Shown here piece by piece: positions 7,824 through 57,075 of a DNA stretch of 64,000 bases (positions within the stretch are counted from its first letter, which is position 1; each line of letters starts with the position of its first letter). Origin of the DNA: Geomonas sp. RF6. GTDB lineage: Bacteria > Desulfobacterota > Desulfuromonadia > Geobacterales > Geobacteraceae. Made by a program: the position numbers and the translations under genes. Below the pieces are notes generated by a model, which saw only the letters and a program-made list of their open reading frames with translations, was not told where the DNA came from and ran no database searches. Where the stretch lies: assembly GCF_021044625.1 (NCBI RefSeq), contig NZ_CP087999.1, positions 2,373,001 through 2,437,000 of the forward strand. Direction: 5' to 3'.

Positions 7824-7877
7824 GTATCGGTTCATCCTAGGACGGCGCGCTTTTCTCTAGTAGAACAGGAGCCTGGG

Positions 7878-7982
7878 CGTCCCCTCCCTTTCAAGGGGAG
7901 GGACAGGGTGGGGATGGGGTACAGGTTGAAGAGCGCCGCCCCCATCCCCCTCCTGTCCTCCCCCTTGAAAGGGGAGGGACGC
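7878..7982. repeat. Dispersed inverted-repeat element, family A
   Basis: A 43-base arm beginning cgtcccctccctttcaaggg is followed after 19 bases by a 42-base inverted arm. The whole 105-bp element can fold into one long hairpin. Near-identical copies occur at 56972-57075 (complete) and 22229-22271 (one arm). It fills the gap between convergent genes. Confidence 0.85.
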
Positions 7983-22170: not shown

Positions 22171-22228
22171 TGCCGGCAGACGGCAGCTGCGCCAACTCTA
22201 CCCGGGAGAGCCTGAGCAGCAGAAATCA

Positions 22229-22271
22229 CGTCCCCTCCCTTTCAAGGGGAGGGACAGGGTGGGGATGGGGT
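22229..22271. repeat. Dispersed repeat, family A, single arm
   Basis: One 43-base arm identical to the left arm of the elements at 7878 and 56972 lies in the 165-bp gap between the DUF444 and SpoVR genes. The inverted partner arm is missing. It is inside the presumed polycistronic transcript. Confidence 0.85.
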
Positions 22272-23976: not shown

Positions 23977-24005
23977 GGCAGGCGGAGGGGGGAAGGGAAG
24001 AGCTC

Positions 24006-26297
24006 ATGGCAGAAATCGAAAGCGTACTAAAGCAGCTGGGTCAAACGATCGTGGAGCGGGAAAAGGGAGAGGTGCTGAGCTTCGACGAGTACCTGCGCCT
24101 CCTCGCCGAGCGCCCCGCGGCCATGATGCGTAACGTCTTCCAGCTCTTTCACGACATGGTGAAGAGCTCGGTGCACCTTATGCCGGACGAGTACCCGGAC
24201 GACCCGGAGTCGATCAACTACGTCAACTACGACACCCGCAAGCTCTTTGTGGAGGATTCGGACCGCCCGTTCTTTGCCGACCGGCTCTTCGCAAACAGGC
24301 TCATGAGCCATGTCTCCGCCATGAAGAGCGGTGCGCGTCAGAACAAGATCTACATCTTCGAGGGGCCTCCGGGGTCCGGGAAGAGCACCTTTCTCAACAA
24401 CCTCCTCATGAAGTTCGAGCAGTACGCCAACACGCAGGACGGTCGCTGCTACGAAGTGGTGTGGCACCTGGACCGCAGGACTCTCGGCCGCTTCAAGGAG
24501 CACCAGGTCGGGCCGTTCCTCGAGAAGCTCTCGCACCTCCTCGACGAGTACGAGCTGGAGAGCCAGGAGTGGATCCACTCCCGCAACATCCTGCAAAGGA
24601 GCGGCGATTTCGTGGAGGTGAGCTGCCCCTCCCACGACAGCCCGCTCCTCATGATCGACAAGCACCAGCGGCGCGCCTTTTTCGACAACCTGTTCCAGAA
24701 CGACGCCTTCAAGTGGGAGCTCTTCACCGACAAGGAGTACGAGTGGGTATTCAGGGATTCGCCGTGCACCATCTGCACCTCGCTCTTCCAGGCTCTCGCC
24801 GCCCGGCTCGAGGACCCGGAGGACCTCTTCCGCATGATCTACGTGCGCCCGATGCGCTTCAACCGTCGCCTCGGCGAAGGGATCACCGTGTTCAACCCGG
24901 GTGACCGCCCGATGCGGCAGAGCATCCTCACCAACGACATGCTGCAGAAAAAGATCGACCTCCTGCTGGGGGATTCCAACGAGGTGAAGTACCTCTACTC
25001 CAACTTCGCGAAGACCAACAACGGGATCTACGCACTGATGGACGTGAAGAGCTTCAACGCAGAGCGCCTCCTGGAGCTGCACAACATCATCAGCGAGGGG
25101 ATCCACAAGGTGGAGGACATAGAGGAGAACGTGCGCAGCCTCTTCATCGCCCTCATGAATCCGGAGGACCAGCGCACCATCGAGGGGTTCCACTCCTTCA
25201 CCGACAGGATCGAGTTCATCAACATCCCGTATGTCATGGACCTGAACACGGAGGTGGAGATCTACCGGAACATCTTCGGGAAGCAGATCGACAACATGTT
25301 CCTGCCGCGCGTGCTGCACAACTTTGCCCGCGTGATCATCTCCAGCCGGCTGAACATCAAGTCAGACGCGCTGCTGGAGTGGATCGGAGATCCCGAGAAG
25401 TACCGGCTGTACTGCGACGAGCACTTGCAGATCCTGAAGATGGAAATCTATACCGGGCACATTCCGGCCTGGCTGACGGAGGAGGACCGCAAGAGGCTCA
25501 ATGCGAAGCGAAGGAGGAAGATCATCGCCGAGAGCGAGCACGAAGGGGACCACGGCTTCTCCGGGAGGGAATCGATCAAGATCTTCTCCGACTTTTTCGC
25601 GGCGTACGCCCGGCGCGACAAGATGATCAACATGTTGCACCTTGCCACCTTCTTCACCCGCTGGCGGAAGGATCTCCGGGACTCCATACCGGAAGGGTTC
25701 ATCGACTCGCTGGTGCACAACTATGACTATGCAGTGCTGCAGGAGGTGAAGGAGTCGCTCTACTACTACAACGAGCAGCAGATCGACCGGGATGTCCTGC
25801 ACTACATGTTTGCGGTGAACTTCGAGCCCGGCTCTGTGCAGGTGTGCAGCTTCACCGGCGAGAAGCTGGAGATCACCGAGGACTTTCTCGCGGGGATCGA
25901 GGGGAGACTTTTGGGGGCGAAGGTCGATCGCTACACCCGGATGGCCTTCAGGCAGGAGACGCAGAAGGAGTACACCGCGCGGACCCTGACGCAGGAGATC
26001 ATGGTGGAGGGGAAAGACCCGAAGGATACGGGGCTTTTCCAGTCGCTGAAGGAGCGGTACGTCTTCAACCTGAAAGAAAAGGTGCTCGAGCCGTTCCTGG
26101 AGAATGCGAACTTCCGGCGCGCCATCAAGGACTTCGACACGGACGCGTTCAAGACGTACGACAAGCGGATCAGGGACGACGTGACGTTCCTTATCAACAA
26201 CCTGTCCACCAACAAGTACCACTACACGAAGCAGTGCGCTAAGGAAGTGTGCGTCTACGTCATCGACAACGACCTGGCGAAGAAGTTTCAGACCTGA
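24006..26297 (+). CDS. Second PrkA-like AAA+ serine kinase family protein
   Basis: This 763-residue protein has a P-loop GPPGSGKS (120-127) after an N-terminal helical region, with the flow of a PrkA-type ATPase. Examples are [20 protein letters not shown] and, later, [20 protein letters not shown]. Its C-terminal domain ([20 protein letters not shown] and following) is also PrkA-like, but the sequence is clearly diverged from the first gene of the cluster. It probably acts in the same complex, perhaps as a partner or regulator kinase. It begins 29 bp after the SpoVR gene and ends the cluster before an intrinsic terminator at 26411. Function is inferred only from family and context. Confidence 0.85.
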
Positions 26298-26326
26298 CGC
26301 TGAAAGTGCCGACGTGCAGCGATCGT

Positions 26327-26430
26327 ACCCCCTCCCTTGACGGGAGGGGGACAGGTGGTGGGTGAAGCTGCCATCTGCTGAACTGGAGCCACCTTCCCCC
26401 CCACCCTGACCCTCCCCCGCAAGGGGGAGG
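26327..26430 (-). repeat. Dispersed inverted-repeat element, family B, copy 1
   Basis: Read on the minus strand, this 104-bp element matches the one at 28388-28494, which lies inside the AsmA-like gene. Shared blocks include agggtgggggggaaggtg, cttcagcaga and gcagcttcaccc. Both ends are G+C-rich short inverted repeats. It sits directly downstream of the PrkA cluster. Confidence 0.8.
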
Positions 26431-26437
26431 TTTTTTT
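26411..26437 (+). terminator. Rho-independent terminator of the PrkA cluster
   Basis: A perfect 8-bp stem (cctccccc/gggggagg) closed by a gcaa tetraloop is followed by seven T. The stem is one end of the family-B repeat, so the repeat supplies the terminator. Confidence 0.85.
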
Positions 26438-26460
26438 GTGGACGCAGCCGGACGCAGTCG

Positions 26461-26559
26461 GACCAGTCGGGCCAGTCGGGCCAGTCGGACCAGTCGGACC
26501 AGTCGGACCAGTCGGACCAGTCGGACCAGTCGGACCAGTCGGACCAGTCGGACCAGTCG
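26461..26559. repeat. Period-9 tandem repeat (11 units)
   Basis: Eleven consecutive 9-base units of gaccagtcg occur; units 2 and 3 read ggccagtcg. Less regular gacgcagtcg units precede them. Because 9 is a multiple of 3, all six frames stay open: one minus-strand frame reads Gly-Pro-Thr repeats and others read Ser-Arg-Thr or Trp-Ser-Asp. No frame has the setting of a gene. It is a minisatellite prone to slippage. Confidence 0.9.
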
Positions 26560-26639
26560 CGCTTCCCGAGGCGCCTCCGCGCCGCACCCTTGTCAAAACG
26601 CGCCTTTGCGGTTAAAGTGTCGTCGGGGGATGCGGCCGC

Positions 26640-29600
26640 ATGGAGGAAAGCTTCAAGAGTGAAGGAGGTGCCAACAAGGGGAGAAAGATCCTTCTCGTAG
26701 TACTCCTGCTGTTTGTGGCACTTGTTACTCTCGCAATCCTCGCCATAAAGGCCTACCTCGCTTCCCCCTATCCCGCAGCAGAGCTTTCCCGCATCCTCTC
26801 CGACTCGCTGAAAGAAGAGGTCCGGGTCGCCCGGATCGAGAGCTCCGGCACCACGATCTACCTCCGGGGGGTGCGCATCCTCAATCCCCCGGGCTTCCCC
26901 GCCGGTAACCTCGTCTACGCAGATTCGCTCGCCATCGCGCCGGACTGGCGCCTGTTCATGACCGGAAAACGCTACTTCCGTCTTATCGGCCTCGAAGGGA
27001 TCCGCCTCAACGCACTCCAAAACCGCAGCGGCGAGTGGAACTTCTCGCGCCTCCAGAGGCACATGGCCGCGCAGAAGCCCTCCCCCATGGAGACGGTGAT
27101 CCGCCACCTCGCGGTGAAGGGCGGAGCCCTCAGCGTGAACGGACGCGGCGTCGACGGGCTCTCCCTCGATGTCTTCGACCTCACCAGCAAGGGCTCCCGC
27201 GATTCTTCCCTCTCCCTCACCTTCCAGGATGCCTGGCGCAACCGCTATGCGGTGAAGGGGAAGGCCCGCCCCGGCCCGACGCCGTCCCTAGCCCTCTCCC
27301 TGACCGCCGATCCCTTTTCCCTCGATCCCCTGGTCTCCCTCCTCCCCCCCGACAAGAGGGGGCGCATAAGAGGCGGCAAAGGGAGACTCGACTTCCAGGG
27401 CGCTCTGGAGGCTGGTCTCTTTACCGGCGACGGGCAGCTCGACTTCCGCGACCTGCGCGTCGCCGCCGCGGGACACGTCATTCCCCTCTCCGGCCGCCTG
27501 ACTCTCGCCGGCGGGTACGACCAGAAGTCGGACCAGGCGACGCTGAAGAGTATGGTGCTGGCGCTGGACCACCTCACCACCGTGCGCGGCACCGGCACGG
27601 TCAGGAAGCTGCGCCACGAGAAAGCCTTCGCGGCGGAGCTCGCCATGGACGAGGCGGACCTTTCCCGGCTCGCCTTTCTCCTGCCGCAGCAGGAGCGGGC
27701 CACCACGAGGGTCGGCGGCAAGGTCAGCTGCCGGACCGTGCGTGTGGCCGGGACCGGGGCCGGGGGGCTCTCTGTTGCCAGCGGCGCCCTCGTATTGCGT
27801 GACGGGCGCCTGCAGAGGGAGGGTCGCACCTTCATCTCCGGCCTCGATGCCACCGTCGCCCTGCAGCGTGCCAAAGGCGGCATCGTCGCCACCGGGCGCG
27901 CAGACGGGCGCGCCGCGGAGCCCGCCCTGGTGGAGCGGATCAAGGGGGACTTTCAGGCCGCCTTCTCCGCCAAACTCAAACCACTCTCCGCGCGCGCTAA
28001 CATCCCCGCAGCGCGGGCAAGCGGCACCGATTTCTCCGCGCGACTGCGCTTTGACGCTGCCTCTCCGGCCCCGTACACCGTCTCGGCGGAAGTCCCCGCC
28101 GCGGGGGCTGCCGCCCTCAACCCTCTCCTTTCCCGCTACAACCTGAAGCTCGGCTCCGGGACCGCTGCGGCAACCCTCTCCGGCAGCGGACGCAGCGCCG
28201 CTGACTTCGCCGCGAATGTCTCCTGCCGTCTCTCCGGGATAGACGGCAGCCGCGGGGCACAGCATTTCGCACTACGTGGGGGGAGGGTGGAAGGGCGCCT
28301 GCTCCGGAAGGAGAAACATCTCGAGTCGGCGGGGAAGGCGCAGCTCTCTTCCTTTTGGTGGGGTGAAAAGGGAGACGCATGGAAAGTCCCCTCCCCCCGT
28401 GCGGGGGAGGGACAGGGTGGGGGGGAAGGTGCCACCACTTCAGCAGACCGCAGCTTCACCCGCCCCCTGTCCCCCTCCCGTCAAGTGAGGGGGGATATCG
28501 GAATCGAGACACAAACCGCAAAAAAGGGGGATGCCGAATTCTCCTACCGGGTGATCGACGATGCCGTCACTCTGGAGAACGGCACCGTGAAGTACGGGGA
28601 TCACACCGCCTCATTTGCCACACTCCTCGCCCAGATCCCGCACAAGGACGGGAGCGGCTACCCTGTCTCCGTTGAGGTGAAGGGAGGCTCCCTGCGTAGC
28701 GCCGATGTGGAGGCGAAGGGGATCGCCGCCACATTGCACGGCCGCTACCTGAGCGACCCGAAGGGGAACTGGCTGGAAGGTGACGCGGTCCTCTCCACAG
28801 GGGGAGCTTCCTGGAAGGGGAAGGAGGTCGGTGCGCCGAGTGCGCGCCTCACCTTCGCCCGAAATGGAGGGAAAGGTACTCTGGGGGGAACCCTCTTCGG
28901 CGGAGCCCTCGTCGCGGACGTGGCTTTCCGCCCGATGGTACCGGAGGAGGAAGAGTTCACCTTCTCCATCGCGGGTGCCCAGGTAAAGGGCCTCTCCCCC
29001 TTCCTCCCGGCCACGAAGGGGCCGCGCCTTTCCAGCGGGGTGCTCGACCTGCGCGCGAACGGCAGCTATTCCCGCCGCGCCGGGATCAACTGTCGCTTTC
29101 AGGGGAAGGGGAAAGGGATCGAGGTAAAGGATGAGAAAGGGAAGGCTCTTCTCTCCGACGCGGGGGTGACGGTACAGGGTGCGCTGGCGGGAGAGAAGCT
29201 CTCCCTCGCTGCCGCCGAGATCTCCGCCGGCGCGGGGGCGCGACTGCTCGCACAGGGGGAGGTGGAAAAGGTCTTCTCGCCGCAGCGAAGCGGCCGCCTC
29301 GCCTTCTCTGTCCCGCGCACCTCGGTAAACGACCTCATCGATCCCTTCGTGAGCATGATGCCGCGCATGCTGCAGGAGGCGAACACGGCGGGGGCTTTGT
29401 CAGCGGACGGCACCATGGTACTGCGCGACGGGCAGGATCTGCTGGAAGGGTCGGTGGCGCTTGAGGAGGTCACGCTGGAGGTCCCCTCCCAGAAGGTCGT
29501 GCTGAAGGGGGTGAACGGGAAGATCCCCGTGTCGCTCGAGCTGGCCGGGAAGGAGATAGGCAAGCCCGGCGCGGGGCTTGCGGTCAGCAGGGAAAACTAT

Positions 29601-30347
29601 CCAAAGCTTTTGCAGCAGCTGAAGGAAAAAGGGACAGCGGGGACTCCGGTCACCATCGCCAAAGTGTCGTACGGCACGCTCGACCTTGGCTCGGTGACGA
29701 TGGAGCTGCAGGCGGAGAGCGGCCTCACAGAGATCAGGTCGCTGCGGGCGACCCTCTACGACGGCGTCGTCTTTGGGAAAGGGAGCGTCTCCATGAAAAA
29801 GGGGGGGACGTTCAGGGTCGATCTGCTGGCAAACGGTGTGAGCCTGAGGAGCCTCTGCAACGACGTCCCCAATATAAAGGGATACATCTCGGGGAGGATC
29901 GACGGGTTCCTCAGCGTCACGGGGACCGGCGGGGGATTGAAAGGGCTCGTTGGCTACACGGAGTTTTGGGCGCGTGAAGGGAAGGGGGAGAAGATGCTGG
30001 TCAGCAGAGAGTTCCTGCAGCGGCTCTCCAACCAGAAGCTGAGCGGCTTCTTCTTCAGCACCGATCGCCCCTACGACCGCGCCGAGATCCGGGCGCTGCT
30101 CCAGGAGGGGGACCTGACCTTCCAGGCGCTCGACATCCAGCACACCAATTTCATCGGAGTCCGCGACCTCAGCGTCTCGATCGTGCCCACCCAGAACCGC
30201 ATCGCTCTCGACCATCTCCTTGAGTCGGTCCGGCAGGCGGCCACCCGCGGGAAGGCTGCGACAGGGGCGGCTCCAGCGGAAACGGCGCCCTCGACGTCAC
30301 CTTCGCCAGCTCCGGAGGCTCAGCCTGAGTTCAAGTGGCAGGATTAG
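26640..30347 (+). CDS. AsmA-family envelope protein
   Basis: This 1235-residue protein has a single N-terminal membrane anchor (about residues 17-38, KILLVVLLLFVALVTLAILA) and a long periplasmic body. It begins with an AsmA-type domain (YPAAELSRILSDSLKEEVRV) and ends with AsmA-like repeats and an Ala/Pro-rich tail. AsmA-like proteins are proposed to bridge inner and outer membranes and carry phospholipids. Residues about 583-618 are encoded by an inserted family-B repeat and are unlike the rest (Gly/Ser/Arg-rich, [20 protein letters not shown]). The gene is otherwise intact and monocistronic, starting 81 bp after the period-9 array. Confidence 0.85.
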   Translation: MEESFKSEGGANKGRKILLVVLLLFVALVTLAILAIKAYLASPYPAAELSRILSDSLKEEVRVARIESSGTTIYLRGVRILNPPGFPAGNLVYADSLAIAPDWRLFMTGKRYFRLIGLEGIRLNALQNRSGEWNFSRLQRHMAAQKPSPMETVIRHLAVKGGALSVNGRGVDGLSLDVFDLTSKGSRDSSLSLTFQDAWRNRYAVKGKARPGPTPSLALSLTADPFSLDPLVSLLPPDKRGRIRGGKGRLDFQGALEAGLFTGDGQLDFRDLRVAAAGHVIPLSGRLTLAGGYDQKSDQATLKSMVLALDHLTTVRGTGTVRKLRHEKAFAAELAMDEADLSRLAFLLPQQERATTRVGGKVSCRTVRVAGTGAGGLSVASGALVLRDGRLQREGRTFISGLDATVALQRAKGGIVATGRADGRAAEPALVERIKGDFQAAFSAKLKPLSARANIPAARASGTDFSARLRFDAASPAPYTVSAEVPAAGAAALNPLLSRYNLKLGSGTAAATLSGSGRSAADFAANVSCRLSGIDGSRGAQHFALRGGRVEGRLLRKEKHLESAGKAQLSSFWWGEKGDAWKVPSPRAGEGQGGGEGATTSADRSFTRPLSPSRQVRGDIGIETQTAKKGDAEFSYRVIDDAVTLENGTVKYGDHTASFATLLAQIPHKDGSGYPVSVEVKGGSLRSADVEAKGIAATLHGRYLSDPKGNWLEGDAVLSTGGASWKGKEVGAPSARLTFARNGGKGTLGGTLFGGALVADVAFRPMVPEEEEFTFSIAGAQVKGLSPFLPATKGPRLSSGVLDLRANGSYSRRAGINCRFQGKGKGIEVKDEKGKALLSDAGVTVQGALAGEKLSLAAAEISAGAGARLLAQGEVEKVFSPQRSGRLAFSVPRTSVNDLIDPFVSMMPRMLQEANTAGALSADGTMVLRDGQDLLEGSVALEEVTLEVPSQKVVLKGVNGKIPVSLELAGKEIGKPGAGLAVSRENYPKLLQQLKEKGTAGTPVTIAKVSYGTLDLGSVTMELQAESGLTEIRSLRATLYDGVVFGKGSVSMKKGGTFRVDLLANGVSLRSLCNDVPNIKGYISGRIDGFLSVTGTGGGLKGLVGYTEFWAREGKGEKMLVSREFLQRLSNQKLSGFFFSTDRPYDRAEIRALLQEGDLTFQALDIQHTNFIGVRDLSVSIVPTQNRIALDHLLESVRQAATRGKAATGAAPAETAPSTSPSPAPEAQPEFKWQD
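28388..28494 (+). repeat. Family-B repeat inserted in frame in the AsmA-like gene
   Basis: About 107 bp match, in opposite orientation, the intergenic element at 26327-26430. It begins cccctcccccc and ends near tcaagtgaggggg. The reading frame stays open across it, adding about 36 residues of low-complexity sequence. Confidence 0.85.
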
Positions 30348-30362
30348 GACTCCTGCTAGCGA

Positions 30363-30773
30363 CTACTCCTCGTCTGCTGCCCCGCGGGAATGACGTGCTC
30401 GCGGCTGTCCCCTTTGCGGCAACGGCTGGGGCTGAATCTGCGGGGGAGCGCTCTGCTGGGCCTGTGGCGCCACGGGAGCAAGCGCGGGTTGCGCGGGGAG
30501 GGGCTGCACTGCCTGCGGCTGTGCGGGAAGCTGGGGAGGTTGAGCCGCGGCGCCCCCTGCCGGTGCGGAGGGTGGCGCGGCGGCGGCCGCAGCGGAGATC
30601 GGCAGCTTCTTCCCCGTTGCCACGTCGTACACCTTGGCGCGCGAGCGGTAGCGGGCGGGGATGTCGTACTGGCTGCTGACGTAGTGAGTGGTACCCTTGG
30701 AGTCGGTCCAGGTGTACATTTCAGCGTAGGCGGTAGAGGCGACGAGGAGCAGCATAAGGGCGAGTCTCTTCAT
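30363..30773 (-). CDS. Secreted DUF4124-domain protein
   Basis: This 136-residue protein has a Sec signal peptide (MKRLALMLLLVASTAYA, cleavage before EMYTW). A short DUF4124 module follows (MYTWTDSKGTTHYVSSQYDIP), then a Pro/Ala/Gln-rich tail from about residue 65. DUF4124 proteins are small envelope proteins of unknown function. The ATG follows GAGGGAG; an upstream in-frame start would place 32 residues before the signal and is rejected. It converges with the AsmA-like gene (15 bp apart) and diverges from the EVE-domain gene. Confidence 0.8.
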   Translation of the reverse strand: MKRLALMLLLVASTAYAEMYTWTDSKGTTHYVSSQYDIPARYRSRAKVYDVATGKKLPISAAAAAAPPSAPAGGAAAQPPQLPAQPQAVQPLPAQPALAPVAPQAQQSAPPQIQPQPLPQRGQPRARHSRGAADEE

Positions 30774-30867
30774 TTTTCTCCCTCGAAAGTGGCGGTTGGC
30801 GCACATCCTTGTCATATCGGATCGGGAAACCTTTTTCAACAGTGAAAGATTGCAAAAGGAGAGCATC

Positions 30868-31350
30868 ATGTCTGAGCGTCGCTACTGGCTCATGAAGTCG
30901 GAGCCGTCCTGCTTCTCGTTCGACGACCTGAAGGCCCGGCCCGACTCTACCGAGCACTGGGACGGTGTGCGCAATTTCCAGGCGCGAGGGTACCTGAAGG
31001 ATGAGATGAAGGTGGGGGACCGCGCCTTCTTTTACCACAGCAACATCGCCGATCCCGCGATCGTGGGGATCGTGGAGGTGGTGAAGGCGGGATACCCGGA
31101 CTGGACAGCATTTGACCCGGAGAACGAGCACTTCGATCCCCGAGGCAGCAAGGAGAAGCCGCTCTGGTTCATGGTGGACGTGCGCTACGTAGCGCCGCTG
31201 CCGAGGCCGGTCACCCTTCGTGAGCTGAAAGGTGTGCCGGAAGTCGGCGACATGGTCCTTCTGAAGCGGGGGAGACTTTCGGTGCAGCCGGTACGCGAGG
31301 AGGAGTGGCGGGCGATTTTGCGTCTGGCGGGAATGCAGGAGGAACCGTAG
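30868..31350 (+). CDS. EVE-domain protein (thymocyte nuclear protein 1-like)
   Basis: This 160-residue protein is a single EVE domain: RRYWLMKSEPSCFSFDDL at the start, WDGVRNFQARGYL, DRAFFYHSNI, and the end VGDMVLLKRGRLSVQPV. EVE domains bind modified bases in DNA or RNA, and some act in modification-dependent restriction. This stand-alone form is a widespread bacterial protein of unknown role, with no restriction partner nearby. The start follows AAAGGAGA 5 bases upstream. Confidence 0.9.
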   Translation: MSERRYWLMKSEPSCFSFDDLKARPDSTEHWDGVRNFQARGYLKDEMKVGDRAFFYHSNIADPAIVGIVEVVKAGYPDWTAFDPENEHFDPRGSKEKPLWFMVDVRYVAPLPRPVTLRELKGVPEVGDMVLLKRGRLSVQPVREEEWRAILRLAGMQEEP

Positions 31351-31496
31351 CCTCTTTCCATATTTGTTGCACCGTTATGTGCTGTAATGAAGCCTTCGGA
31401 TCCACGACAGGGCACTTTTGAAGCGGGTGGTAAAGGAGCGATGACCTCGCCTACACCCCGCACTCACCGCCTGTCACCGTGGACGAGGAGGCTCCC

Positions 31497-31784
31497 ATGA
31501 CGCGCAAGCTCGTTTTTCCGGTGCTGGCGGTGCTGATGGGCGCGACCCTCTCCGGTTGCGTCATCGATACCGGATACTACGACGCCGGATACTATGGAGG
31601 ATATGGGCAGAGCTACATAGAACGGCAGTACTGGAACGGGCCGTACTATGGTCCCGGATACTACAACTATGGATACGGGCATCGCCACTACTACAGGGAT
31701 TACGGATACGGAGGTCGGCACTACTACAGGGATGGCCCATCCTACGGGGGGCGCAGCGACTTCCGCTACGGGTACCGCCGCTAG
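31497..31784 (+). CDS. Small Tyr/Gly-rich lipoprotein
   Basis: This 95-residue protein starts with a lipoprotein signal ending in the lipobox LSGC (VLAVLMGATLSGCVID). The mature part is rich in Tyr, Gly and His (GYYDAGYYGGYGQSY and similar). The ATG lies behind GAGGAGG. It and the next small gene share the signal (GA(T/S)LSGCVI) and similar upstream DNA, so they look like a tandem duplication. It is probably anchored in a membrane; function is unknown. Metal binding through His/Tyr is possible but not shown. Confidence 0.75.
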   Translation: MTRKLVFPVLAVLMGATLSGCVIDTGYYDAGYYGGYGQSYIERQYWNGPYYGPGYYNYGYGHRHYYRDYGYGGRHYYRDGPSYGGRSDFRYGYRR

Positions 31785-31968
31785 CGGGCAGCTCCGCTAA
31801 CTTCCTGACTTTCCTTATTTGCTGCACTCTTCTTGCACCGTGCCGTGTTGAAATAAAGCCAGTTGTTCCTAAAGACACGAAATGTCCCGAAGCGGGTATC
31901 GGGGAGGTGACGGGTGGCCCGACAGCACCGACCACCCCCGCTGGTGACAGTGGACAGGGAGGCTGGCA

Positions 31969-32133
31969 ATGAGAAGAAGGCTTGGCATGGTCGTGGCGCT
32001 GGTGCTGCTTGGCGCGTCACTCTCCGGATGTGTTATCGAACCGTGGGACATGGGGTATGGCGGTGGACACCATCACCACCACCACGACGACTACGGCCGC
32101 GGCGGCGGATACCGCCACGGCGGCAGGTACTAA
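31969..32133 (+). CDS. Very small His-rich lipoprotein, paralog of the preceding gene
   Basis: This 54-residue protein starts at an ATG behind GGGAGG. It has a basic N-terminus (MRRR), a hydrophobic stretch and the lipobox LSGC, and continues VIEPWDMGYGGG into a run of six His and a Gly/Arg/Tyr tail. The signal and the DNA before it resemble the gene 184 bp upstream. The His run suggests metal binding (inference). It is short enough to be missed by automatic annotation, but the lipobox and ribosome-binding site support it. Confidence 0.7.
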   Translation: MRRRLGMVVALVLLGASLSGCVIEPWDMGYGGGHHHHHHDDYGRGGGYRHGGRY

Positions 32134-32151
32134 AATACCGCGTTTAAAAAG

Positions 32152-32180
32152 AAGGGGCGGGGATCATCTCCCCGCCCCTT
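32152..32180 (-). terminator. Intrinsic terminator between lipoprotein genes and pepN
   Basis: A perfect 12-bp stem (aaggggcgggga/tccccgcccctt) with a 5-base loop is followed on the minus strand by CTTTTT. It therefore ends pepN transcription and may also act on the plus strand for the small lipoprotein gene. Confidence 0.85.
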
Positions 32181-32206
32181 TCTGCGTCGTTCTCTCCAGC
32201 GTCGTT

Positions 32207-34846
32207 CTACAAACTCTTCACCACCAGCTCGTGCACGTCGCGCACCAGGTTCGGCCCGACGAGGATGCGCTGCAGCTCGTTTTTCATCAGATCCTGCCGG
32301 CCGGGGTCGAAGCGGCGCCACCTCGTCAGTGGCGTCACCATGCGGGCGGCGATCTGCGGGTTTATCTCGTTCAGGCGCAGCACCTGGTCGGCGAGAAAAC
32401 GGTACCCTTCACCGCTGCGATCGTGGAACCGTACCTGGTTCTGGGAAAAGGCCCCTACAAGTGCCCGGACCCGATTCGGAACACGGATGTCGAAGTCCGG
32501 GTGGGAAAGGAGGGCATTGACCTCCTGAAGCGTTCCGGGGAGGTGTGAGGATGCCTGCAGCCGGAACCACTTGTCGATAACCCCGCGGTCCTCGCGCCAC
32601 TTGATGTAGAACTGCGCCAGTGCCTCGTTCCTCTGGGGGCAGTCGCAGTCGACGAGCGAGTGGAGGGCCCCCATGGTGTCGGTCATGTTGTCTGCGGCCT
32701 CGAACTGCTCCATGGCGAGCTCGATCCCTTCCGTGTCGCCACCCGCGGTGAGGTAGGCGAGGCAGAGCCTGCGCAGGCGCCTCTCCCCGAAGCGCCCGTC
32801 GTCCGGTGCATACGGCGCCTTCGGCGTGCAGGAGCGGTACAGGGAGAGGAATTCCTCGCGCAGTCGCGCCCCCAGTACCTCGCGCACCAGTTCCCTCGCT
32901 TCGTGGATTCCCTCCGGATCGATCGTCTCCATTTGCTCCGCCAGATACCCCTCGCTCGGAAGTGTCAGCGCCTCCGCCTGGAAGGCATGTTCCATCGATC
33001 TGTCGGCGAGGGTGCTGGCGAAGGCGGAGACGAATTCCTCCGGCACCAGCATGTGGCGCCCCGACTGACGGTCAGCCACGAGCTCGAGTATGAGCTTCAC
33101 CCCCTGGATCTGCCCCGCTTCCCAGCGCACGAACGGGTCGCTGTCGTGCGCCATGAGGAAGGTGAGATCCTCGTCGCTGTAGCAGTCGGCGAGTTTCACC
33201 GGCGCGGAGAAGTTGCGCAGGAGGGATGGGACCGGAGGGGCGGGGACGTCGAGGAAACGGAAAGTCTCAGTCTCACGGGTAAGCTCCAGTATGCGCGTGG
33301 TCCCCTTCGGGGCATCCTCACCCTGGAGACGCAGCGGCAGGTCGCCCCCGTCCGGCCCGAGGAGCCCCACCGCGAGGGGGATATGCAGGGGGAGCTTCTC
33401 CGGCTGCCCCGGCGTGGGGGGCGTCTTCTGGGTTGCGGTCAGGAGGTAGCTCATCTCGTTCTCGTCGTACTCTCCCGAAACTGTGAGGACCGGGGTGCCC
33501 GCCTGATCGTACCAGCGCATGAACTGCGTCAGGTCGCGCTCCCCTGCGTCCGCCATCGCCTGTACGAATTCGTCCACCCGCACCGCCTTCCCGTCGTAGC
33601 GCTCGAAGTAGAGATCCATACCTTTCCTGAAGCGCTCCTTCCCGAGGAGGGTGGCGAGCATGCGGATGACTTCCCCCCCCTTGTGGTAGACGGTCATGCT
33701 GTAGAAGTTGTTGATCTCGACGTACGACTCCGGGCGCACCGGGTGCGCCAGCGGACCGGCGTCCTCGGCAAATTGGGAGAAGCGCAGCCCCCGCACGTCG
33801 GCAATGCGCTTCACTGCGCGGGACTGCATGTCGGAGGAGAACTCCTGGTCGCGGTAGATGGTGAGCCCTTCCTTCAACGAGAGCTGGAACCAGTCGCGGC
33901 AGGTGATGCGGTTGCCGGTCCAGTTGTGGAAGTACTCGTGCCCGATCACCTCCTCGATGGCATGGTAGTCGTCGTCGGTGGCGCTCTCGGGGCTGGCGAG
34001 GACGTAGATGGAGTTGAAGATGTTGAGCCCCTTGTTCTCCATGGCCCCCATGTTGAAGTCGTCGACCGCCACGATCATGTATGTGTCGAGATCGTACTCC
34101 CGCCCGAACTTCTCCTCGTCCCAGCGCATGGCGTGGGCCAGTGAGGTCAGGGCGTGGCCGCACTTGTCGCGGTTTTTCTCCTCCACGTAGATCTCCAGGC
34201 TCACGCTGCGCCCGCTCATGGTGGTGAAGGTGTCGGAGATCTCCACGAGGTCCCCGGCGACGATGGCGAAGAGGTACGAGGGTTTCCTGAAGGGGTCGTG
34301 CCACACCGCGTAGTGGCGCTCGTCCGGCAGGTCCCCTTTTTCCATGAGGTTGCCGTTGGCAAGGAGGACGGGGGCGCTTTCCCGGTCCGCCTCCAGCCGC
34401 ACGGTGTACACCGCCATGACGTCGGGGCGGTCCGGGAAGTAGGTGATGCGCCGGAAACCCTCCGCCTCGCACTGCGTGCACATCATCGGGCCGGAGAGGT
34501 ACAGCCCCTCCAGCGCCGTGTTGCTGCGAGGGCTGATCTCGGTTATCACCTCGAGTGAGAAACGCTCAGGGACCTGGCGGATCGTGAGCTCTTCCCCCTC
34601 GATGTAATAACTCTCCGGGGGGAGCTCCACGCCGTCAAGCTTCAGCGAGACGAGCTTCAGTTCCGCGCCGTCCAGCAGGAGGGGGCGAGGCCCCGGTGGG
34701 CGGTCGGGGTTGGCGCGCATAGTCAGCCGGCTGGTGACCCGGGTGAGATCCTCATCGAGGTTGAAGCTGATGTCGACGGTGTCGACGAGATAGTCGGGGG
34801 GAGTATAGTCTTTCTGGTGGATGGTCCGGTGTTGCGTGTGCGACAT
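32207..34846 (-). CDS. pepN: Aminopeptidase N (M1 family)
   Basis: This 879-residue zinc aminopeptidase has the M1 exopeptidase motif MGAMENKGLN and the zinc site HEYFH at about 303-307 (EEVIGHEYFHNWTGN). The third zinc ligand Glu lies in SLKEGLTIYRDQEF. The length and the C-terminal helical domain match the E. coli PepN type, a broad-specificity cytoplasmic enzyme that completes peptide breakdown. There is no signal peptide. It ends at a strong terminator and appears monocistronic. A TATAGT-like -10 lies upstream near 34910 without a clear -35. Confidence 0.95.
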   Translation of the reverse strand: MSHTQHRTIHQKDYTPPDYLVDTVDISFNLDEDLTRVTSRLTMRANPDRPPGPRPLLLDGAELKLVSLKLDGVELPPESYYIEGEELTIRQVPERFSLEVITEISPRSNTALEGLYLSGPMMCTQCEAEGFRRITYFPDRPDVMAVYTVRLEADRESAPVLLANGNLMEKGDLPDERHYAVWHDPFRKPSYLFAIVAGDLVEISDTFTTMSGRSVSLEIYVEEKNRDKCGHALTSLAHAMRWDEEKFGREYDLDTYMIVAVDDFNMGAMENKGLNIFNSIYVLASPESATDDDYHAIEEVIGHEYFHNWTGNRITCRDWFQLSLKEGLTIYRDQEFSSDMQSRAVKRIADVRGLRFSQFAEDAGPLAHPVRPESYVEINNFYSMTVYHKGGEVIRMLATLLGKERFRKGMDLYFERYDGKAVRVDEFVQAMADAGERDLTQFMRWYDQAGTPVLTVSGEYDENEMSYLLTATQKTPPTPGQPEKLPLHIPLAVGLLGPDGGDLPLRLQGEDAPKGTTRILELTRETETFRFLDVPAPPVPSLLRNFSAPVKLADCYSDEDLTFLMAHDSDPFVRWEAGQIQGVKLILELVADRQSGRHMLVPEEFVSAFASTLADRSMEHAFQAEALTLPSEGYLAEQMETIDPEGIHEARELVREVLGARLREEFLSLYRSCTPKAPYAPDDGRFGERRLRRLCLAYLTAGGDTEGIELAMEQFEAADNMTDTMGALHSLVDCDCPQRNEALAQFYIKWREDRGVIDKWFRLQASSHLPGTLQEVNALLSHPDFDIRVPNRVRALVGAFSQNQVRFHDRSGEGYRFLADQVLRLNEINPQIAARMVTPLTRWRRFDPGRQDLMKNELQRILVGPNLVRDVHELVVKSL

Positions 34847-35223: not shown

Positions 35224-35267
35224 GAATTCCCGGAATTCCCGGATGTACCTTCGCAAAGGGGGGAACC
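35224..35267 (-). repeat. Dispersed repeat, family C, copy 2
   Basis: Read on the minus strand, this matches the copy at 50631 almost base for base: ctttgcgaaggt, then catccgggaattccggg. Confidence 0.7.
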
Positions 35268-50630: not shown

Positions 50631-50665
50631 TTGCGAAGGTTCATCCGGGAATTCCGGGGAGCGTG
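50631..50665 (+). repeat. Dispersed repeat, family C, copy 3
   Basis: It begins gttcccccctttgcgaaggt and continues catccgggaattccgggg, matching the minus-strand copy at 35224-35267. Confidence 0.7.
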
Positions 50666-56578: not shown

Positions 56579-56971
56579 AATTCGTGCGCCCTTTCGCGGG
56601 ATCGGATTTTTTGGGGGGGTGCCCCAGGAAGTGTCACGGACCCGGCGTTGCAGGTGGGAAAAGCGTCAAAAAACGGTGATTGCAGGAAGAATGCCGCGAA
56701 AAGTGGACAACTCAGCTTTGGCACCGTGCTCATGACAGCTAGAATGTTGCCACTGGGAGTTCTTCTTTCCACACAGGCTGTGGAAAACCGTGTGGACAAG
56801 AGCCCCTCATTCCTGCCGTGATGGGCTCAACACCGGCCGTTTTTAGCGTTTTGCCTCTTTTTTGTGCAGCTGGAGTGCGTGAAAAAATGGGCAGCGGAGC
56901 CGCACTGGAAGTACCCTGAACGGCTGGCCTCATGCGGCCTATGTTTCCTCCACGACCGCAGGAGCATAGGG
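56579..56971. other. Intergenic region without recognised gene
   Basis: About 390 bases between the emfourin terminator and a family-A element contain no frame with a credible start and family. It faces pyc from the downstream side, so no promoter for a flanking gene is needed here. Confidence 0.45.
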
Positions 56972-57075
56972 CGTCCCCTCCCTTTCAAGGGGAGGGACAG
57001 GGTGGGGATGGGGTTGAGGTTGGTGAGCGTCGACCCCATCCCCCACCTGTCCTCCCCCTTGAAAGGGGAGGGACG
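56972..57075. repeat. Dispersed inverted-repeat element, family A, second complete copy
   Basis: A 43-base arm and a 42-base inverted arm around a 19-base centre match the element at 7878-7982 almost exactly. It again lies between convergent genes. Confidence 0.85.

Follow-up and report, generated by a model that had tools for sequence, protein, structure and literature searches.

RPE of Rickettsia are palindromic repeats which are inserted in frame within genes and add residues to the encoded proteins (PMC10969869, PMC3733652), and nearly half of them are described as lying in open reading frames (PMC10969869). In Geobacter bemidjiensis, a multicopy family is reported within genes on both strands and in all frames without causing frameshifts (PMC2996986). 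For G. metallireducens, 49 elements are described, lying inside genes as well as between them, and a class 4 set composed of CCYTC repeats reportedly resembles sequences found in many genomes (PMC2700814). In-gene REPs are noted in several species, and CGTC-tagged REPs, which are head-to-head palindromes without a known dedicated transposase, also lie in genes in some cases (PMC3733652). They carry a CGTC tag at one end and a stem of 8-9 bp in which the first two pairs are A-T; how CGTC repeats move without a dedicated transposase is left open there (PMC3733652). A MITE layout around a REP-like core is described for QMITE2 of Coxiella burnetii, which is about 190 bp long with ends of 23-29 bp, direct repeats of 7-9 bp and a core of 113-145 bp, and truncated copies of which are REP-like (PMC10969869). 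The Chunjie MITE of Geobacter uraniireducens is described with many partial copies and a length of 178-235 bp (PMC10969869). Multicopy sequences are also treated in PMC3543383, with nothing decisive for the repeat described here.

We analysed a palindromic repeat of Geomonas sp. RF6, starting from a stretch of 64,000 nucleotides (the window, whose positions are used throughout). In our reading, to which we give a probability of about 0.88, a copy of this family-wide repeat entered an AsmA-like gene after the split from the sequenced relatives and is tolerated as a loop in the protein. The effect, in-frame insertion in genes (the AsmA-like gene and two genes in relatives), is shared with RPE. 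The coding share, compared by description, is 1 of 60 copies in the genome and 1 of 42 in relatives against nearly half for RPE, so that the likeness to Rickettsia proposed in an earlier, sequence-only reading of this DNA holds for the effect of adding residues and fails for the frequency of coding copies. Membership of the RPE is not supported. The in-gene multicopy sequences of G. bemidjiensis and G. metallireducens, again compared by description, come from the same bacterial family and share the lack of frameshifts. Compared with CGTC-tagged REPs, the repeat described here, at 109 bp, is a longer unit, and its first stem pairs are C-G instead of A-T. QMITE2 has a similar layout, although host and core differ and the core described here is found in two unrelated shells. 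Chunjie is a MITE family of a related bacterium and is likened by description only. In-gene repeats are already known in Geobacter from the accounts in PMC2996986 and PMC2700814. The greater novelty lies in the occurrence of one core in two unrelated shells.

The AsmA-like gene and its inserted segment

The AsmA-like gene (26640-30347, forward strand) encodes 1235 amino acids with Pfam matches to DUF748 at residues 13-452 and to AsmA at residues 1004-1104. Model-based limits place the 109-bp core of the repeat at 28387-28495 on the forward strand, where it is 94.5% identical to the repeat consensus. A second copy lies on the reverse strand at 26326-26429, in the intergenic stretch that separates the AsmA-like gene from a PrkA-type gene (24006-26297). 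Together the two copies form an inverted repeat with arms of 100 nt (26328-26427 and 28394-28493) that are 90% complementary, the longest of seven inverted repeats listed for the region 24000-34000. The 1235-aa frame is uninterrupted across the repeat, and the composition is of coding type in one frame on both sides of it (GC3 0.81 and 0.82). These results bear out the sequence-only reading in its first claim, that a repeat lies in frame within the AsmA-like gene and matches, in opposite orientation, the intergenic copy 2 kb upstream. No Rfam match was obtained in 24000-34000 at gathering thresholds. Directly beside the intergenic copy, a 9-bp unit (GGACCAGTC type) is repeated in tandem at 26437-26577, and copy L082 elsewhere in the genome is likewise flanked by a 9-bp array (GGGCGGACT type).

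Alignment with orthologs, spanning several genera, delimits an inserted segment of about 51 codons (residues 576-626; 28365-28517, forward strand), the ends of which are accurate to within a few residues as the orthologs are distant. Residues 576-626 are occupied in none of the 29 aligned family orthologs, whereas all 29 have residues aligned to the neighbouring positions 566-575 and 627-635; a total of 39 family orthologs were found, the other 10 being known as search matches only. A scan of genome contigs with the alignment as query (a single-protein query gave none) yielded 49 named relatives. Between Q571 and Q630, 44 of these have seven residues against 58 in the AsmA-like protein, and the remaining five, each a single frame encoding a shorter form, have no residues aligned in the segment. 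The two sets share species, and their counts are not to be summed; among the genomes compared, the genus is represented by that of Geomonas sp. RF6 alone. Residues 583-618, which are encoded by the repeat and are rich in Gly, Ser, Arg and Pro, are thus missing from the orthologs along with the rest of the segment, as the earlier reading had proposed to check. Its estimate of about 36 added residues is correct for the repeat alone, but the extra stretch relative to orthologs is about 51. Of the two findings that it named as contrary to an insertion, conservation of the segment at protein level in all orthologs and a lack of copies in related genomes, neither was made.

A fold model of residues 401-800, built with 36 ortholog fragments from the named relatives, has a mean pLDDT of 86.0 and a pTM of 0.78. 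The insertion corresponds to fragment residues 176-226 and lies between predicted strands E160-176 and E230-239. Both of its sides are modelled with confidence, and pLDDT falls below 50 at fragment residues 190-211 and 213-224. The model suggests that the insertion is a loop, probably a floppy one, placed where two strands of a long beta sheet turn, a position at which a loop would be tolerated.

Copies, core architecture and shells

The repeat is abundant in the 5.26-Mb genome. A 29-base motif of its left half has 56 matches (29 forward and 27 reverse, with up to 3 mismatches), and the reversed-pattern control has none. At least 60 distinct copies are present (61 were collected, the coding copy being present twice), and these counts are lower bounds, as only 40 of the 211 candidates from the first look were scored in the DNA search, which listed 40 matches. 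Mean pairwise identity among the 60 copies is 0.88 in the core, compared with 0.33 and 0.30 in the 30 bases to its left and right, and the core is therefore the common unit. Across the family, 35 of 48 genomes, including that of Geomonas sp. RF6, have a match to the repeat. Three further stretches of the window, 7860-7976, 56966-57075 and 22218-22264, match the repeat profile less strongly (E values of 5.5e-7 to 3.1e-5) and are possibly decayed copies or relatives of the repeat.

An alignment-based fold of 18 diverse copies (A4) gives three local hairpins with 29 pairs. Converted by hand from the alignment columns, these lie on the forward strand of the coding copy at 28389-28411 (columns 4-26), 28415-28467 (the central hairpin, columns 30-89) and 28472-28492 (columns 94-114). 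Both sides are changed in at least one sequence in 4 of the 29 pairs, and the covariation term is just -0.17 kcal/mol. Folded by itself as RNA, the consensus forms one long hairpin with a z-score of -5.48. The stem of the core has nine pairs, the first three of them C-G, and its left edge reads ACG|TCCCC in most copies and AAG|TCCCC in the coding copy. Stop codons are absent from the three forward frames of the consensus and occur in each of its reverse frames; among the individual copies, 40 of the 60 have an open reverse frame 2.

Part of the copies in the genome are enclosed in a shell with ISL3-type ends. Such ends occur in 12 of the 60 copies (up to 4 mismatches), on both sides in seven, and in none of the shuffled sequences. 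The 20-base end motif has 228 matches in the genome (up to 3 mismatches; none in the control), and each of the three ISL3 (PF01610) transposase genes is bordered by similar ends. Direct repeats of at least 8 bp at 28-50 bases from the core were found in 9 of the 60 copies, where about 0.8 would be expected from mismatched flanks; without the distance limit the figure is 11 of 60, against 7.5% expected. Seven of the nine show ISL3-type ends on at least one side. Copy L072 has degenerate ends, and the direct repeat in L073 looks like chance. The eight copies with both ends at up to 6 mismatches are 184-186 bp long, and a target duplication of 8-11 bp (edge shift of 2 or less) is present in six of them and in none of the other two. 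Part of the copies are thus MITEs, which an ISL3 transposase could mobilise in trans. Elsewhere in the window, ISL3-type end motifs at 50641-50660 and 35227-35246 both adjoin CCCCTTTGCGAAGG. This sequence is also found next to several of the ISL3 or MITE ends in L094-L096, L005 and L070, and is perhaps a preferred target.

A second shell, with TGATGC ends, surrounds the core in other genera. It is found in 8 of 82 distinct copies from relatives at up to 3 mismatches, in 9 of 82 at up to 5 mismatches, and in none of the 60 copies of the RF6 genome. Seven of the nine are in G047 (L117-L122), one in G002 (L195) and one in G045 (L197). Both ends are present in eight of the nine; five of the G047 copies are 159 bp long and one is 156 bp. 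An exact 4-bp duplication occurs in four of the eight, all from G047, and the other four have a duplication of 0 or 1 base. Because the ends and the duplication length differ, these data speak for a transposon type other than that of the ISL3-type shell. The same core is therefore present in two unrelated shells and, most often, in no recognisable shell.

Coding copies in the genome and in relatives

A genome-wide search for coding copies, which the sequence-only reading had suggested, returned many further copies of the repeat, with the copy in the AsmA-like gene the sole coding one among the 60 collected. The search covered frames open for at least 120 bases on both sides of a copy, among which this one alone has coding-type composition in one frame on either side, and the resulting count omits copies at extreme gene edges and in genes broken by insertion. 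The GC-rich DNA yields many spurious open frames around other copies. The frames at L077 and L088 (829 and 831 aa) and those at L010, L015 and L029 were rejected as their GC content by codon position is not gene-like, and L012 was set aside as its downstream side alone is coding-like.

Among relatives, one coding copy was found in 42 copies from 40 loci, which were the top DNA matches and were unselected for open frames. A further 20 loci were chosen mainly for their long open frames, so that no rate can be read from the share of coding copies among them. The coding copy in G021 lies in a 673-aa frame with TPR matches and is read in the same frame as in the AsmA-like gene. The insertion is absent from 12 of 13 orthologs of this TPR gene, and the extra stretch has about the length of the core. 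The G017 ortholog has an insertion close to this site, next to an N and to a piece that is duplicated in the assembly. In G004, among the loci chosen mainly for long frames, the repeat is in frame on the opposite strand within a 488-aa frame matching type III methyltransferases. A search for homologs of this frame gave 29 plasmid records, and the five that were aligned all lack the insertion. This gene may be broken, because the frame has 488 aa where the coding sequences of relatives are about 3 kb long, and it ends near the end of the contig. Frames at L201/L227 and L234 in relatives had the wrong GC pattern and were not accepted as coding. No recognisable shell was found at any coding copy.

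Origin and movement of the repeat

Once the lineage had separated from its sequenced relatives, the repeat copy, with its core of 109 bp, would have inserted into the AsmA-like gene, which would have gained about 51 residues with its frame kept open. The frame would have stayed open because the inserted length is divisible by three and the forward frames of the consensus are stop-free. We infer that the segment was gained rather than repeatedly lost, that the protein remains functional and that transposition is how the repeat moves. The vehicle of part of the copies was likely a MITE shell with the ends of this genome's ISL3 insertion sequence, and a different shell would have served in other genera. 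The notion of a mobile repeat tolerated as a protein linker, put forward in the sequence-only reading, agrees with the absence from orthologs, the many copies and the low-confidence loop of the fold model; its remaining element, movement of the bare 109-bp unit, we infer.

It is conceivable, given that the RF6 genome is the sole member of its genus compared, that the segment is an ancestral part of the protein which other lineages have lost, and that the repeats elsewhere are derived from it. The absence of the segment from every aligned family ortholog and from 44 of the 49 named relatives makes this very hard to credit, as does the occurrence of the repeat in 35 of 48 genomes, yet with aligned AsmA-like proteins that lack the segment. 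A broken or decaying AsmA-like gene, whose open frame is an accident of GC-rich DNA, would fit with the spurious open frames common around other copies and with consensus forward frames that are open anyway. However, both halves of the gene are of coding type in the same frame, orthologs are matched over nearly the whole length and the fold is modelled with confidence before and after the insertion, and we consider decay quite unlikely.

The coding copy may have come as a complete ISL3-type MITE, the ends of which were later lost or eroded, rather than as a bare core. This would accord with the ISL3-type ends in 12 of the 60 copies, with the left flank of the coding copy, which weakly fits the flank profile of the other copies (1.4-2.6% of random positions score equally), and with the MITE copies without ends that are described as resembling REPs (PMC10969869). 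The shelled element, however, measures 184-186 bp plus a duplication against an insertion of about 153 bp, which consists of the core and 44 bp split over both of its flanks, and the extra stretch in the TPR gene has about the length of the core. No ISL3-type terminal repeats and no target duplication were seen at the coding copy, where the right flank has no fit to the profile (65-76% of random positions score equally). Arrival as a MITE is thus a possibility of some substance that we nevertheless doubt. Similar A/G-rich pieces on the two sides of the AsmA-like insertion were examined as a target duplication and rejected, as they give no notable match and are spaced at 156 against the insertion of 153.

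More broadly, and tentatively, since we put it at somewhat less than an even chance, the palindrome may be a cargo module, conserved across genera, that is swapped between unrelated MITE shells (ISL3-type with 8-9 bp duplications, and TGATGC of about 159 bp with 4-bp duplications) and that has also entered genes bare, repeatedly, as an in-frame loop. If this were so, palindromic repeats could spread without a dedicated RAYT transposase. The general point lies in the architecture: a single conserved palindrome occurs as a bare unit, inside two unrelated transposon shells and as part of proteins. With evidence from orthologs and a fold model, the AsmA-like gene is a further instance outside Rickettsia in which a repeat of intergenic type has become protein, and in relatives the same repeat has hit two other genes. 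Whether or not it is a CGTC family, this family makes one kind of answer to the mobility of CGTC repeats testable.

Empty sites were sought in the close pair G014 and G015, whose AsmA-like proteins are 95.3% identical, and none of the four copies compared had a clean bare-core empty site. At one site the core is absent and about 30 other bases are present instead. At another (L264:15605-15713 compared with L289), the core interior has been lost in G015 between two GGGAGGGGG pieces, the pattern that deletion by a hairpin or by slippage would be expected to leave. The remaining sites hold one apparently degenerate version of the core and one other sequence. Linkage to Y1 (RAYT-type) transposases was not seen, with a significant repeat copy at none of six PF01797 loci taken with 1.5-kb flanks. 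At one locus, L066 (G000:C1:4233242-4233472), a Y1-transposase gene lies amid several similar short stretches unrelated to the repeat, and is perhaps a RAYT with a repeat family of its own.
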